A DNA stretch of 64,000 nucleotides, taken from assembly GCA_017618135.1 (NCBI GenBank), contig JAFZUV010000007.1, positions 62,001-126,000 of the forward strand. The letters run 5' to 3'. How positions within the stretch are numbered: the stretch's first letter is position 1; every line of letters starts with the position of its first letter. Positions 25,011 to 62,213 of the stretch are shown here, piece after piece. The notes below the pieces were generated by a model that did no database searches, was not told the origin of the DNA, and was given only the letters and a program-made list of their open reading frames with translations. A program made the position numbers and the translations under genes. Source of the stretch: Clostridia bacterium (GTDB lineage: Bacteria > Bacillota > Clostridia > Oscillospirales > Acutalibacteraceae).

Positions 25011-25087
25011 CCGCCCGTGGCGCAGCTGGATAACGCAGCAGATTCCGATTCTGAAGAACAGGGGTTCGAATCCCTTCGGGCGGGCCA
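25011..25087 (+). tRNA. tRNA-Arg (anticodon CCG)
   Basis: The acceptor CCGCCCG (25011-25017) pairs with CGGGCGG (25077-25083). The D arm, the anticodon loop TTCCGAT (anticodon CCG at 25045-25047) and the T loop TTCGAAT are in place, and CCA is encoded (25085-25087). Length 77 nt. No promoter is obvious after galE, so read-through from galE may contribute. Confidence 0.93.
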
Positions 25088-25126
25088 AAAGAGAACATCG
25101 TGCCTTTTGGTACGGTGTTCTCTTTT
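25087..25126 (+). terminator. tRNA-Arg terminator hairpin
   Basis: AAAAGAGAACA pairs with TGTTCTCTTTT, the latter serving as T-rich tail. It begins at the last base of the tRNA. Confidence 0.8.
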
Positions 25127-25140
25127 AGTTCCAGTAGAAA

Positions 25141-25266
25141 CGAAGGGATTCGAAAAGGGCGGTTTTGCCGCAAGGCAAAATGCCAACCTTTCAGTGAACG
25201 GTTGGCAAGCCCGTGGGCGTGTAGCCTCAACAGTTGCGGCGTAGCGAATCCCTTCGGGCGGGCCAA
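25141..25266 (+). repeat. tRNA-linked structured element, copy A (carries a copy of the tRNA-Arg 3' end)
   Basis: The last 22 nt (25245-25266) are identical to 25067-25088, i.e. the tRNA-Arg 3' end from position C56 of the tRNA through CCA plus one A. A 12-nt arm at 25141-25152 is the exact reverse complement of 25245-25256. The core between them folds as follows: closing stem 25157-25160/25209-25212, hairpin 25163-25169/25174-25180 (GCAA loop), hairpin 25181-25188/25200-25207, and a hairpin at 25224-25240. A homologous core lies next to tRNA-Gly (34772-34894, minus strand). Function and mobility are unknown; I do not recognise the family. Confidence 0.8.
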
Positions 25267-25267
25267 C

Positions 25268-25307
25268 AAAAAAAGAGTGATTTGTCTACCGGACAATCAC
25301 TTTTTTT
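25268..25307 (+). terminator. Terminator directly after element copy A
   Basis: GTGATTTGTC pairs with GACAATCAC with a one-base bulge, preceded by an A-run and followed by seven T. Copy A could thus be made as a discrete transcript. Confidence 0.85.
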
Positions 25308-25310
25308 GCA

Positions 25311-25400
25311 CGATGTGTTCCGCTCTCGCGGAACGAGACGTACGCTTTGCGTATGATGTATCCAACTGATGTGATGTGCGCTTACGCGCGTGAAACGGAA
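25311..25400 (+). repeat. Hairpin cluster with GATGTG spacers
   Basis: Three short perfect hairpins follow each other: GTTCCGC/GCGGAAC (25317-25334), TACGC/GCGTA (25341-25353) and GCGC/GCGC (25378-25389). GATGTG-like words recur between them (25312, 25374). It resembles small interspersed repeats that I have seen in clostridial intergenic DNA; no coding potential is visible. Confidence 0.5.
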
Positions 25401-25445
25401 CTCATCTTATCACTTTACAACTGAAAACCGTTTTATAATTACCTC

Positions 25446-32725: not shown

Positions 32726-34696
32726 ATGTCAGATAAGCTAAGGCGCTTAAACAGCTTTTTTAAGATAAAGCATTGGCATTTTGTAACTGCATTTTTAATA
32801 TTTTATGATATTATCGCCGTAAACGCGAGTTATTTTTTAGCTCTTTGGTTCAGATATGATTGCAGCTTTAACAGTATCGATGAGATGTATATATCGGCGT
32901 ACTTTAGATTTGTACCCATATATACAATTTTCTGCATATCGGTTTTCTGTATTTTGCGTCTTTATAACAGTATTTGGCGGTTTGCGAGCTATAGAGAACT
33001 GTTACATATATTTGTCTCAAGCTTTATAACCTCTGTTTTCCATACTGTGTTTATAACACTGGTCTTTTCAAGGATGCCTATATCTTATTATGCTTTCGGA
33101 GCGTTTTTCCAGTTTACACTCATTCTGATAATAAGATTTTCATATAGATTTGTTTTGCTGCTCAGAGATGCTCGTGTTGCAAAGTCCGAAATCAGAAACC
33201 GCGTTATGATTATAGGTGCCGGAGTGGCGGGAACAATGATTTTGCGCGATATTAACGGCAGTGATAAGATAAGCGGTGACCGGGCTGTTTGTATAATTGA
33301 TGATAATAAGAATAAATGGGGAAGATTTATTGATAATGTTCCTATCGCAGGCGGTAGGGAGTCTATTTTCTATAATGTCAAAAAATACGGTGTAGACAAG
33401 ATATATATTTCTATTCCAAGCGCTTCCGCAACTGATAAGCGTGATATTCTAAGCATTTGTAATGAAACCGGCTGTGATATTAAAAACCTACCCGGCGTTT
33501 ATCAGCTGATAAACGGCGAAATCAGTGCCAGCAGTTTAAAACCTGTAACCATAGAGGACCTTTTGGGCAGAGATCCTATAAACATACAGAGCGAGGATAC
33601 ATTTGGTTATATTAAAGATAAGGTTGTTCTTGTTACCGGTGGAGGCGGATCAATCGGCAGCGAGCTTTGCCGCCAGATTGCTACGCACAATCCGAAAAAA
33701 CTTATTATTCTTGATATTTATGAGAACAACGCTTATGATATTCAGCAGGAAATCATGCATAGTTTCCCGACTGTCGACCTCGTAACACTTATAGGCTCAG
33801 TAAGAGACAGCAGGCGCCTTGATGTTGTTTTTTCAAAGTACCACCCCGATATTGTTTATCATGCCGCGGCTCATAAGCATGTTCCTTTAATGGAGGATAG
33901 CCCCTGCGAGTCAATTAAAAATAATGTGGTAGGAACCTATAAGACCGCATATGCCGCCGTAAAATACGGTTGCCGCCGTTTTATACTTATAAGTACCGAT
34001 AAGGCGGTTAATCCAACCAATATAATGGGCGCCAGTAAGCGACTTTGCGAGATGGTAATTCAGTCTTTTGCAAAGCTTTTGAGCGAAGGAAGGGAAGACT
34101 GTATATATCCGCTTTATGAGCATTATGATGAGTTTTTTGATGAGAATAAAGTGGGACTTAAAGCTCAGGTTAAAACCGAGTTTGTAGCGGTCCGCTTCGG
34201 AAATGTTCTCGGCAGTAACGGTTCGGTAGTTCCTAAGTTTAAAAAGCAAATAGAGGAGGGCGGACCTGTTACAGTGACACACCCGGATATTATCCGTTAT
34301 TTTATGACTATACCGGAAGCTGTAAGCCTTGTTTTGGAAGCAGGTGCTTATGCTAAGGGCGGAGAAATATTCGTGCTTGATATGGGAGAACCTGTAAAGA
34401 TTGCTGACCTTGCCCGCAACCTGATAAGGCTTTCAGGTTATGTTCCTGATGTGGACATAAAAATTGAATATTCAGGGCTCAGACCGGGTGAAAAGCTTTT
34501 TGAAGAGAAGCTTATGGCTGAGGAAGGCTTGGAGAGAACTGAAAATAAGCTTATACATATTTGTAAACCAATGGATTTTGACCCTGTAGGTGTTTTTGAG
34601 TCGGTGTCAAATCTTATGGAGGATTGTTATAATGAGGACCCGAAAATCCGGGAGATTGTAAGACAAATTGTACCTACATATCATCCAAACAATTAA
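32726..34696 (+). CDS. CapD/EpsC-like membrane nucleotide-sugar 4,6-dehydratase
   Basis: The 656-residue protein has four N-terminal membrane helices, a first Rossmann domain (MIIGAGVAGTMILRDI) and a second, catalytic SDR domain (VLVTGGGGSIGSELCRQI, HAAAHKHVPLMED, STDKAVNPTNIMGASKR). The Tyr of the usual SDR YxxxK is replaced by Met, as is normal for this CapD subfamily. It probably makes a 4-keto-6-deoxy UDP-sugar for a surface polysaccharide. The RBS is GGGGGG. Monocistronic; it ends before a strong terminator. Confidence 0.9.
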   Translation: MSDKLRRLNSFFKIKHWHFVTAFLIFYDIIAVNASYFLALWFRYDCSFNSIDEMYISAYFRFVPIYTIFCISVFCILRLYNSIWRFASYRELLHIFVSSFITSVFHTVFITLVFSRMPISYYAFGAFFQFTLILIIRFSYRFVLLLRDARVAKSEIRNRVMIIGAGVAGTMILRDINGSDKISGDRAVCIIDDNKNKWGRFIDNVPIAGGRESIFYNVKKYGVDKIYISIPSASATDKRDILSICNETGCDIKNLPGVYQLINGEISASSLKPVTIEDLLGRDPINIQSEDTFGYIKDKVVLVTGGGGSIGSELCRQIATHNPKKLIILDIYENNAYDIQQEIMHSFPTVDLVTLIGSVRDSRRLDVVFSKYHPDIVYHAAAHKHVPLMEDSPCESIKNNVVGTYKTAYAAVKYGCRRFILISTDKAVNPTNIMGASKRLCEMVIQSFAKLLSEGREDCIYPLYEHYDEFFDENKVGLKAQVKTEFVAVRFGNVLGSNGSVVPKFKKQIEEGGPVTVTHPDIIRYFMTIPEAVSLVLEAGAYAKGGEIFVLDMGEPVKIADLARNLIRLSGYVPDVDIKIEYSGLRPGEKLFEEKLMAEEGLERTENKLIHICKPMDFDPVGVFESVSNLMEDCYNEDPKIREIVRQIVPTYHPNN

Positions 34697-34737: not shown

Positions 34738-34774
34738 AAAAGAAACCGATGACCTCCGGTCATCGGTTTCTTTT
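34738..34774. terminator. Bidirectional terminator between dehydratase gene and element copy B
   Basis: A 17-bp stem (34738-34754 with 34758-34774, loop TCC) carries A- and T-runs. On the minus strand it lies directly after the CCA of copy B. Confidence 0.95.
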
Positions 34775-34894
34775 TGGAGCGGGTGATGGGAATCGCTACG
34801 CCGCTGTCGCGGCTACACGCCCACGGACTTGTCAACCGTTCGCAGAAAGGTTGACATTTGCCTGACGGCAAACCGTCCTTTTCTATTCCCATCC
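34772..34894 (-). repeat. tRNA-linked structured element, copy B (carries a copy of the tRNA-Gly 3' end)
   Basis: The 24 nt at 34772-34795 are identical to 34934-34957, i.e. the tRNA-Gly 3' end from C56 through CCA and the following A-run. The 9-nt arm at 34885-34893 is the exact reverse complement of 34785-34793. The core matches copy A at 25153-25244 with about ten substitutions and three small gaps. Stems are 34875-34878/34825-34828, 34867-34872/34857-34862, 34849-34856/34830-34837 and 34809-34813/34800-34804. Order on the minus strand: tRNA, terminator, element, terminator, as at copy A. Confidence 0.8.
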
Positions 34895-34899
34895 ATAAA

Positions 34900-34937
34900 A
34901 AAAGAAAACAACAACCAAAAGGTCATTGTTTTCTTTT
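34900..34937 (-). terminator. tRNA-Gly terminator hairpin
   Basis: On the minus strand AAAAGAAAACAA, which begins in the tRNA CCA end, pairs with TTGTTTTCTTTT; further T follow. Confidence 0.8.
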
Positions 34938-35011
34938 GGAGCGGGTGATGGGAATCGAACCCACACGACCAGCTTGGAAGGCTGGGATTCTAGCCATTGA
35001 ACTACACCCGC
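34937..35011 (-). tRNA. tRNA-Gly (anticodon TCC)
   Basis: On the minus strand the acceptor GCGGGTG pairs with CACCCGC. The anticodon loop CTTCCAA gives anticodon TCC, the T loop is TTCGATT, and CCA is encoded at 34939-34937. Length 75 nt including CCA. Confidence 0.95.
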
Positions 35012-62137: not shown

Positions 62138-62213
62138 GATCCATTAGCTCAGTTGGCAGAGCACTTGACTTTTAATCAAGGTGTCCGGGGTTCAAATCCC
62201 CGATGGGTCACCA
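62138..62213 (+). tRNA. tRNA-Lys (anticodon TTT)
   Basis: GATCCAT pairs with ATGGGTC in the acceptor (one T-G pair). The anticodon stem CTTGA/TCAAG encloses CTTTTAA (anticodon TTT), the T loop is TTCAAAT, and CCA is encoded. 76 nt. Unlike the other two tRNAs, no structured element follows. Confidence 0.96.

Follow-up and report, generated by a model that had tools for sequence, protein, structure and literature searches.

Behind two tRNA genes of a 64,000-nt stretch of a Clostridia bacterium genome (GenBank GCA_017618135.1, contig JAFZUV010000007.1, positions 62,001 to 126,000; hereafter the window) lie two copies, A and B, of a small repeat in which a short antisense arm, complementary to the T arm of the tRNA in front, is followed by a folded core, a copy of the 3´ end of that same tRNA and a second terminator. 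The anatomy recurs in many genomes: the arm is complementary to the tRNA across hosts and straddles the junction at which the tRNA copy begins, the stems of the core covary, the terminator is duplicated in part of the copies, and the element stands behind a given gene in some genomes and is absent behind the same gene in others. We tentatively read it as a non-autonomous, target-complementary insertion element that is kept harmless by duplication of the tRNA 3´ end, often together with the terminator (probability of about 0.45). We infer its mobility, the enzyme that would move it and the chemistry; the arm would be a targeting guide, acting as RNA or as a single DNA strand, of an element that may still be moving. 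The 3´ ends of tRNA genes are classic landing sites of mobile DNA, and all such visitors known to us match the tRNA in direct orientation. In the present case, by contrast, folded repeats of a hundred bases bear an inverted segment matched to the tRNA or tmRNA in front, at 21 isoacceptors in the copies read. They look like an undescribed family of tRNA-seeking repeats; no description was found in the literature searched, from which subscription papers were mostly out of reach.

On the minus strand, copy B follows tRNA-Gly (TCC), which has an encoded CCA (34937..35011; ARAGORN; Rfam RF00005, 66.2 bits). Terminator 1 (34896..34936) has hairpin arms at 34900-34916 and 34921-34937 that are 88% complementary and followed by a T run, and the last base of the arm at 34921-34937 is A76 of the tRNA. 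The 11-nt antisense arm (34883..34893) is complementary to tRNA-Gly positions 56-66 with a single mismatch at 57: GATGGGAAT at 34893-34885, the arm located in the earlier note, is the reverse complement of positions 58-66, and the next two bases are AG where perfect pairing would need CG. The arm is followed by AA, complementary to T54-T55. The core (34796..34882), supported by its fold, by the alignment and consensus structure of 35 copies and by a model match of 119.6 bits, comprises a 4-bp stem, GGAC/GTCC, around two hairpins, then GTGGGCGTGTA, a GCCGC/GCGGC hairpin and a terminal GTAG. The tail copy (34775..34795) is a direct repeat of C56-A76 including CCA, within an exact 24-nt repeat (34772-34795 and 34934-34957) that begins at tRNA position 56. 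Terminator 2 (34738..34774), with perfect 17-nt hairpin arms and then a T-rich stretch, is 72% identical to terminator 1 across the first 38 bases. The order tRNA, terminator, element, terminator proposed in the earlier note could thus be read from the sequence, the ARAGORN call and the inverted repeats.

Copy A, on the plus strand, has the same layout behind tRNA-Arg (CCG) (25011..25087; ARAGORN, Rfam). A hairpin and T run read by eye as terminator 1 (25088..25127) are followed by a 12-nt arm (25141..25152) that is the perfect complement of tRNA-Arg 56-67 and again continues with AA, by a core ending in GTAG (25153..25244; fold and consensus structure, model match 125 bits), by a tail copy identical in sequence to C56-A76 (25245..25265) and by a terminator 2 of the 'TTTGTCTACC' loop type (25266..25308) that is unlike terminator 1 of this copy (57% over 38 bases). 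The homology of the two cores suggested earlier was borne out, with 82% identity over query positions 1-109. The fold of copy B was better than 200 of 200 shuffles (z -4.46), and none of 200 shuffles was as good as copy A (z -3.36). The window genome holds five full copies, behind tRNA-Gly (TCC), tRNA-Arg (CCG), tRNA-Arg (TCT) and, as a tandem pair, tRNA-Arg (ACG), as well as the 5´ half of an element behind tRNA-Ser (GCT). The third tRNA of the window, tRNA-Lys at 62138, had no exact 8-nt arm and no tail copy within 420 bases behind it.

We aligned 35 copies and derived a consensus structure and a covariance model from them, and 19 of the 27 predicted pairs keep pairing through changes on both sides in that alignment. 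In 45 copies outside model building, the core stems (without the arm) were paired in 96.4% of cells compared with 76.8% in shuffles, and 15 of 18 core pairs had changed on both sides, values reached in 0 of 500 shuffles (4 of 500 for the pair-type measure), in an alignment that was fitted to the model and hence biased towards the structure. Sliding the stem partners by 1-3 columns in these copies reduced pairing to 31-45%. Counting matches at E ≤ 0.001 and including the window's own genome each time, we detected the family in 35 of 70 genomes of the genus and 20 of 160 genomes drawn from the taxonomic family with the covariance model, and in 15 of 391 genomes of the class and 2 of 398 of the phylum with a second one; the highest copy number in one genome was 16 (G053; genomes, contigs and loci are given as G, C and L numbers). 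Several class-level matches were weak (E 1e-4 to 1e-3); most of these loci show tRNA, arm and tail, and no tRNA was seen at class-level loci L416 and L430. Full-length matches span 88-130 bases. The loci contained 90 + 45 = 135 matches, 129 of which were taken forward; left out were four cut-off matches (L048, L320, L295:829-868 and L375:1-55), a duplicate of L082 (L291) and a weak match with another core type (L307:244-348), and the cut-off matches L318 and L405:636-726 were kept. A tRNA was called upstream of 104 of the 129 (102 distinct copies). Many of the other 25 adjoin the end of a contig or follow a tmRNA or partial tRNA.

No Rfam family reached its gathering score over the core in the window or in samples of 20 and 14 loci, where only matches below that score overlapped some cores. 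A 14-base core pattern was too short for scans of the whole collection (at least 120 matches in each of two scans); when it was filtered by context in 246 sequences, 12 sites were obtained among the matches listed, comprising 7 real ones (L001, L002, L003, L005, L082 and two in the window, with overlaps; L048 is the other contig end of the L082 element) and 5 due to chance (L006, L079, L094, L111 and L224). Phage and plasmid records gave no match to one element, L289 (blastn, word size 11). With longer core patterns in viral contigs, one gave 0 matches, and the hairpin ACAGTCCGGTGGACTGTTTT gave 4, none with a tRNA called within 1000 bases. This hairpin is the inner stem of several core types; the viral contigs are L480-L483, and L482 and L483 share a similar context.

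The complementarity of the arm to the host tRNA was scored in the 102 distinct copies at the best of 8 offsets against tRNA positions 56-63. The arm fit its own tRNA at 8 of 8 positions in 89 copies, with 1 mismatch in 10 and 2 mismatches in 3; in two of these last three (L387 and L388) the arm had been misplaced by an insertion in the core and the real arms fit 8 of 8. With the same offset freedom, tRNAs of other amino acids were fit at 8 of 8 in 387 of 8676 pairings (4.5%), and at fixed register in 368 of 8178. A 10 of 10 fit was seen with the own tRNA in 62 of 102 copies, compared with 47 of 8676 pairings for other amino acids. The AA facing T54-T55 followed the arm in 100 of 102 copies, the remaining two being the misplaced L387 and L388. 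Position by position, in the 99 copies with at most one mismatch, complementarity was found in 98-99 copies at 56-62, in 92 at 63, in 71-82 at 64-66 and in 41 at 67. When 40 distinct tails, drawn from any genome and any isoacceptor and including variants of the same tRNA from other genomes, competed over 11 bases, the own tRNA was strictly best in 64 of 102 copies and tied in 17. The hosts of the 102 copies are 21 isoacceptors, and tmRNA also serves as host (L288, L295, L423 and L456). Behind tRNA-Ser-gga in L388 and L296, the arm fits tRNA-Ser-cga over more bases.

The last 11 bases are intact in 84 tail copies. An 8-nt antisense stretch was found upstream of 81 of them (exceptions: L382, L384 and L391), and the junction lies inside this stretch in 80 of 81 (80/84 of all tail copies); these rows are not independent, since tandem tails share an arm, and the L297 row (start at 63) is the tail of another repeat. 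The earlier suggestion that the duplicated part always starts at C56 is true of copies A and B and of 52 of the 81, and fails for 29, which start at 57-64. Some of the later starts reflect later mutation or uncertain tmRNA numbering (an incomplete CCA makes the numbering of the two L288 rows 3 too high), and some come from core types that insert at 57-61. In such other core types the junction shifts 3´ and the arm extends further 5´, to tRNA positions 48-53, as in L272 (arm 48-63, tail from 61), L422 (arm 51-64, tail from 57), L426 (arm 51-63, tail from 59), the second arm of L365 (51-63, tail from 59) and the tmRNA case L423, where the arm reaches 4 bases beyond T54. The 5´ tRNA bases paired by these arms are absent from the tail copy.

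The terminal arms had also been expected to match the tail. They usually do, and in places where the tail departs from the tRNA the arm still fits the latter. A script flagged 27 of the 102 copies for a perfect arm with an imperfect tail and 10 for the reverse. Read singly, the 27 comprised 18 changed tails, 6 type-related later starts (L308, L312, L342, L364 and two in L360) and 3 cut or truncated copies (L318, L341 and L380); the 10 comprised 8 changed arms and the L387 and L388 artefacts. The 18 to 8 ratio leans towards an arm tied to the tRNA itself more than to the tail, and the better argument for this is that the arms of other core types reach tRNA bases missing from the tail. For the same two reasons, chiefly the second, we dropped the idea that an arm:tail helix is the sole conserved unit. 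Past about position 61-64 the tail has become degenerate in 10 Arg-acg copies and in many behind Glu-ttc, and 9 of these 10 Arg-acg copies have arms that fit the tRNA over 10-15 bases. L377, in which arm and tail are both changed, is a partial counter-example.

In most copies the ends follow the host tRNA and the core is common to different hosts, as the earlier note had supposed. Among 72 first copies, 35 pairs at different tRNAs had cores at least 88% identical; in these overlapping and hence not independent pairs, mean divergence was 9% for the core and 24% for both arm and tRNA, and the arm differences equalled the tRNA differences in 34 of 35. Such pairs fit either movement with a re-matched arm or core conversion between fixed arms. 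Of 83 genus copies, 26 had their nearest core elsewhere at the same tRNA; for 15 it was at a different tRNA within the same genome, and for 42 at a different tRNA in another genome. In one genome, L387 (behind Ser-cga) and L388 (behind Ser-gga) have cores that are 98% identical and carry the same inserted sequence. This insert is a CAGATG-repeat-rich stretch within the first core hairpin. In L281 the arm fits the host Ser-gct, the tail is that of Ser-cga and the stem is broken (GGAC/GCCC), which reads as a probable recombination inside the core. Copies whose ends do not match the adjacent tRNA were few: the arms of L388 and L296 and the tail of L281.

Comparison at the same gene, which the earlier note had called for between strains and which was made here between genomes, revealed a patchy distribution, in the genus as a whole (35/70) as well as at tRNA-Gly-tcc and tmRNA loci. 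Among 14 tRNA-Gly-tcc loci with a match to the query tail only, a sample that excludes loci with a type 1 core and gives no frequency, a full element with another core type was present at 3, a remnant at 3 and neither at 8. For tmRNA, 20 of 30 loci were resolved and 3 of the 20 carried the element; L295 is a further tmRNA case. The terminators after the tail and before the arm were at least 85% identical in 15 of 53 good-tail copies (60-85% in 9, lower in 29), so the duplication, beginning at C56, can take in the terminator as well. In some copies a different repeat, in part of the Gut-1 family, follows the tail. Where copies were read behind a tRNA, the tRNA and the arm are separated by a terminator-like hairpin. 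Tandem arrays are frequent (for example L278, L294, L305, L337, L349, L359 and L360), and right-truncated remnants with the arm and part of the core were also seen (for example L004, L264, L266, L271, L324, L341 and L343). In L351, ahead of an intact gene, two tandem copies are lodged between U55 and C56 of the 5´ half of a tRNA-Gly-ccc, and the 3´ side of a hairpin stands in place of the arm.

We propose that the antisense arm would recognise the T arm of a tRNA or tmRNA, as gene or as transcript, and that the element would settle at a junction inside the T loop. The established form would then read complete tRNA, terminator, arm with folded core, tRNA 3´ end and terminator, the tRNA 3´ end starting at about C56, or for other core types at 57-61. 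Since the tRNA 3´ end lies on both sides of the element, as does the terminator in the clearest cases, the tRNA in front remains whole and its transcription can end ahead of the element, and insertion should therefore be nearly neutral. Later, the direct repeats might allow copies to multiply in tandem, cores might be traded between copies at different tRNAs, and copies might decay, in many cases starting at the right-hand side. Homologous recombination between direct repeats would probably be enough for tandem growth and loss, and not for first arrival at a new tRNA. An arm that acts as a guide would be a naturally reprogrammed one, for which dozens of guide-target pairs have been sequenced; an arm that acts as a regulator would make these repeats a layer of tRNA-specific RNAs.

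Several observations weigh against an insertion element with a guide. No pair of an empty and a filled site with shared flanks was obtained. A guide used only for insertion leaves the matched arm in the 18 changed-tail copies unexplained, and in tails that start at 56 the 5´ side of the straddle consists only of the AA facing T54-T55, bases common to nearly all tRNAs. In the 11-base contest another of the 40 tails fit better than the own tRNA in 21 of 102 copies, and no tRNA-like sequence was found in the 230 bases upstream of L299, L313, L354 and L402. The 26 of 83 same-tRNA nearest neighbours compare with 6.1 expected from label shuffling (maximum 14), indicating some vertical inheritance. 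The terminator-1 spacers of most same-core pairs are unlike, which favours gene conversion for part of those pairs, and spacers go with tRNA type more often than cores do (33 vs 23 of 72). The element encodes no enzyme. No RVT_1 domain was found at E ≤ 1e-5 in G053, G034, G012, G050, G066, G020 or G000 (the window genome), and no Y1 transposase in G053, G050 or G020 despite 16, 10 and 5 copies.

These absences bear on two routes of movement that we considered. Retrotransposition was appealing, as the duplicated part ends near the terminator T run; it is weakened by the seven RVT_1-free genomes, which hold 5-16 copies each. RVT_1 was present in 17 of 70 genus genomes, including some carriers (for example G004, G011 and G057). 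Transposition of the Y1/REP type is likewise weakened by the three copy-rich genomes without a Y1 match, a match being present in 42 of 70 genus genomes including the window's own. The latter, at G000:C12:45936-46331, is weak (31.5 bits, 158-aa frame) and possibly REP-associated. With respect to the acting molecule, mispairs in the largest stem were G.T in 29 cases and A.C in 5, an excess that favours a single tRNA-sense strand, whereas the outer stem, with G.T 2 and A.C 8, favours the opposite; the P3 stem had 10 and 4. G.U pairs made up 41 of 2190 canonical pairs in core stems (1.9%) compared with 145 of 1840 (7.9%) in the tRNA stems of the same loci, a control biased by the pairing rules of ARAGORN, and this scarcity would argue for DNA hairpins.

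The earlier note had left the choice between a mobile element and an RNA that must match its tRNA. The patchy distribution and the poor tracking of host tRNA by the cores speak for the first, though neither movement nor an enzyme was seen. The second would be a host-serving RNA, made by read-through from the tRNA promoter, whose arm alternates between its own tail and the tRNA, or a fragment of the latter, and serves in cis or trans as a sensor or regulator of that one tRNA. The arms that still fit the tRNA in 18 changed-tail copies (8 the reverse) agree with this, as do the covarying core stems and the 29:5 excess of G.T over A.C in the largest stem, by which the tRNA-sense strand may matter, and an arm with a decoy tail would be the layout of a strand-exchange sensor. 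We nevertheless regard it as unlikely: half of the genus lacks the element at this sensitivity and hosts vary between genomes, a terminator-like hairpin separates tRNA from arm, the outer stem mispairs point the opposite way and a G.U share of 1.9% is low for RNA. Copy B is followed by a convergent ORF (32726-34696, plus strand), so no regulated gene is evident there, and regulation of a downstream gene in cis does not fit this copy. Duplicated tRNA 3´ ends are typical of tRNA-targeted integration, and the repeats might instead be the attL and attR of a tyrosine integrase, flanking a shrunken island in which the arm is a by-product of stem selection. Excision between the repeats would restore the site, and other small repeats share these sites. 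We consider this improbable, given that the same folded core occurs at 21 isoacceptors and tmRNA with an inverted arm matched to most, and that in other core types the pairing of the arm extends to T-arm bases beyond the repeat. A circle with the tail of one tRNA would presumably spoil a different tRNA, and the elements have no room for an integrase gene, flanks and genomes not having been searched for one.

The order guide, core, 3´ exon would also suit a new small ribozyme, group I-like in trans, with the arm as internal guide, a catalytic core and a tail that could be joined to U55. The guide straddles the junction in 80 of 81 and shifts with it between core types, U55 precedes the junction and G the tail in most type 1 copies, and L351 sits at U55|C56. 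Such a ribozyme is a distant prospect, as the core of about 90 nt had no Rfam group I match (20 loci, E up to 5; 14 loci, E up to 0.5), the type 1 guide pairs with two 5´ bases only, and the degenerate tails (10 Arg-acg and many Glu-ttc copies) mean that a joined product would not be a tRNA; for the copies with such tails we dropped strict splicing. Somewhat less doubtful, if still rather unlikely, is a broader interpretation in which the element stands for a new class of small RNAs or single-strand DNAs that would find tRNA and tmRNA genes with an internal T-arm guide and exchange or insert at the T loop, a minimal counterpart, with an unrelated 90-nt core, to group I introns or trans-splicing ribozymes. 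Tandem repeats break assemblies, and some copies do stand at the end of a contig (L279, L285, L312, L048/L082), but others lie within long contigs of many genomes and the matched control gave 4.5%. With 35 of 70 genomes, covariation in 45 copies and this control, an assembly artefact can be dismissed, and chance is excluded by the family, on the sequence evidence.

Among known systems, the insertion element that we favour invites comparison with group I introns, in which an internal guide pairs with both exons (P1/P10) (PMC3984707). Both have a short guide near the 5´ end that pairs across the insertion junction, both join a common core to a host-specific guide with tRNA genes among the hosts, and both have G before the 3´ junction, here in most type 1 copies. 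Pairing across the junction was found in 80 of 81, with only two 5´ bases in type 1. Unlike these introns, the element has a core of about 90 nt with simple nested stems and a T-loop site, and it keeps a complete tRNA and terminator upstream with no sign of splicing being needed. The conserved catalytic core (P3-P9, with the G site of P7) gave no Rfam match in the 20 loci (E up to 5) or the 14 loci (E up to 0.5), and because the core fails this model search we do not class the element as a group I intron.

The bridge RNA of IS110 elements (PMC11208160, PMC11208158) is likewise a structured non-coding RNA with target-matched guides. Its guides reportedly occupy two loops and a recombinase is involved, whereas our element has one contiguous guide, no recombinase (IS110 recombinases were not searched for) and a duplicated tRNA 3´ end. 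Theta ribozymes, which are HDV-like and lie next to the tRNAs of gut phages (PMC10879173), are also small structured RNAs directly downstream of tRNAs; their cleavage site often adjoins the tRNA, while here a terminator and the arm intervene and the element has a tail copy and chromosomal tRNA hosts. HDV-like families did not reach gathering score in the window, the 20 loci or the 14 loci (Rfam).

Where islands and phages integrate at tRNA 3´ ends, this end is directly repeated and the tRNA stays intact. Our element shares such repeats and differs in its full-length model matches of 88-130 bases, the lack of an integrase inside, the inverted target-specific arm and the folded core. The Gut-1 RNA (RF01706) occurs at several of the same tRNA ends, directly after the tail copy, and is a separate family, with a model that leaves the core uncovered. 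Behind the tail and terminator, hairpin arrays reach the Gut-1 gathering score in L277 (614-689) and L297 (909-986), and others, including L309 (622-696 and 742-810), fall just under it, some as inverted pairs. A hairpin array past copy A (window 25309-25420) resembles these arrays, and Rfam made no call there. Another small repeat, a GC-rich hairpin followed by an ACCCAAT-like sequence, lies directly at the CCA end of tRNAs or tmRNA in L460, L461, L475 (tandem), L294, L297, L302, L382, L404 and L407. No Rfam family reached gathering score for it in L294, L297, L461 or L475 (cmscan), and in L460, L461, L475 and L297 it closes with a copy of the last CCA bases. Finally, G050 has two tmRNA-like genes (C78:16451-16795 and C115:11864-12221) with elements behind the second only; the pair could reflect contamination (4%) or a real duplicate.
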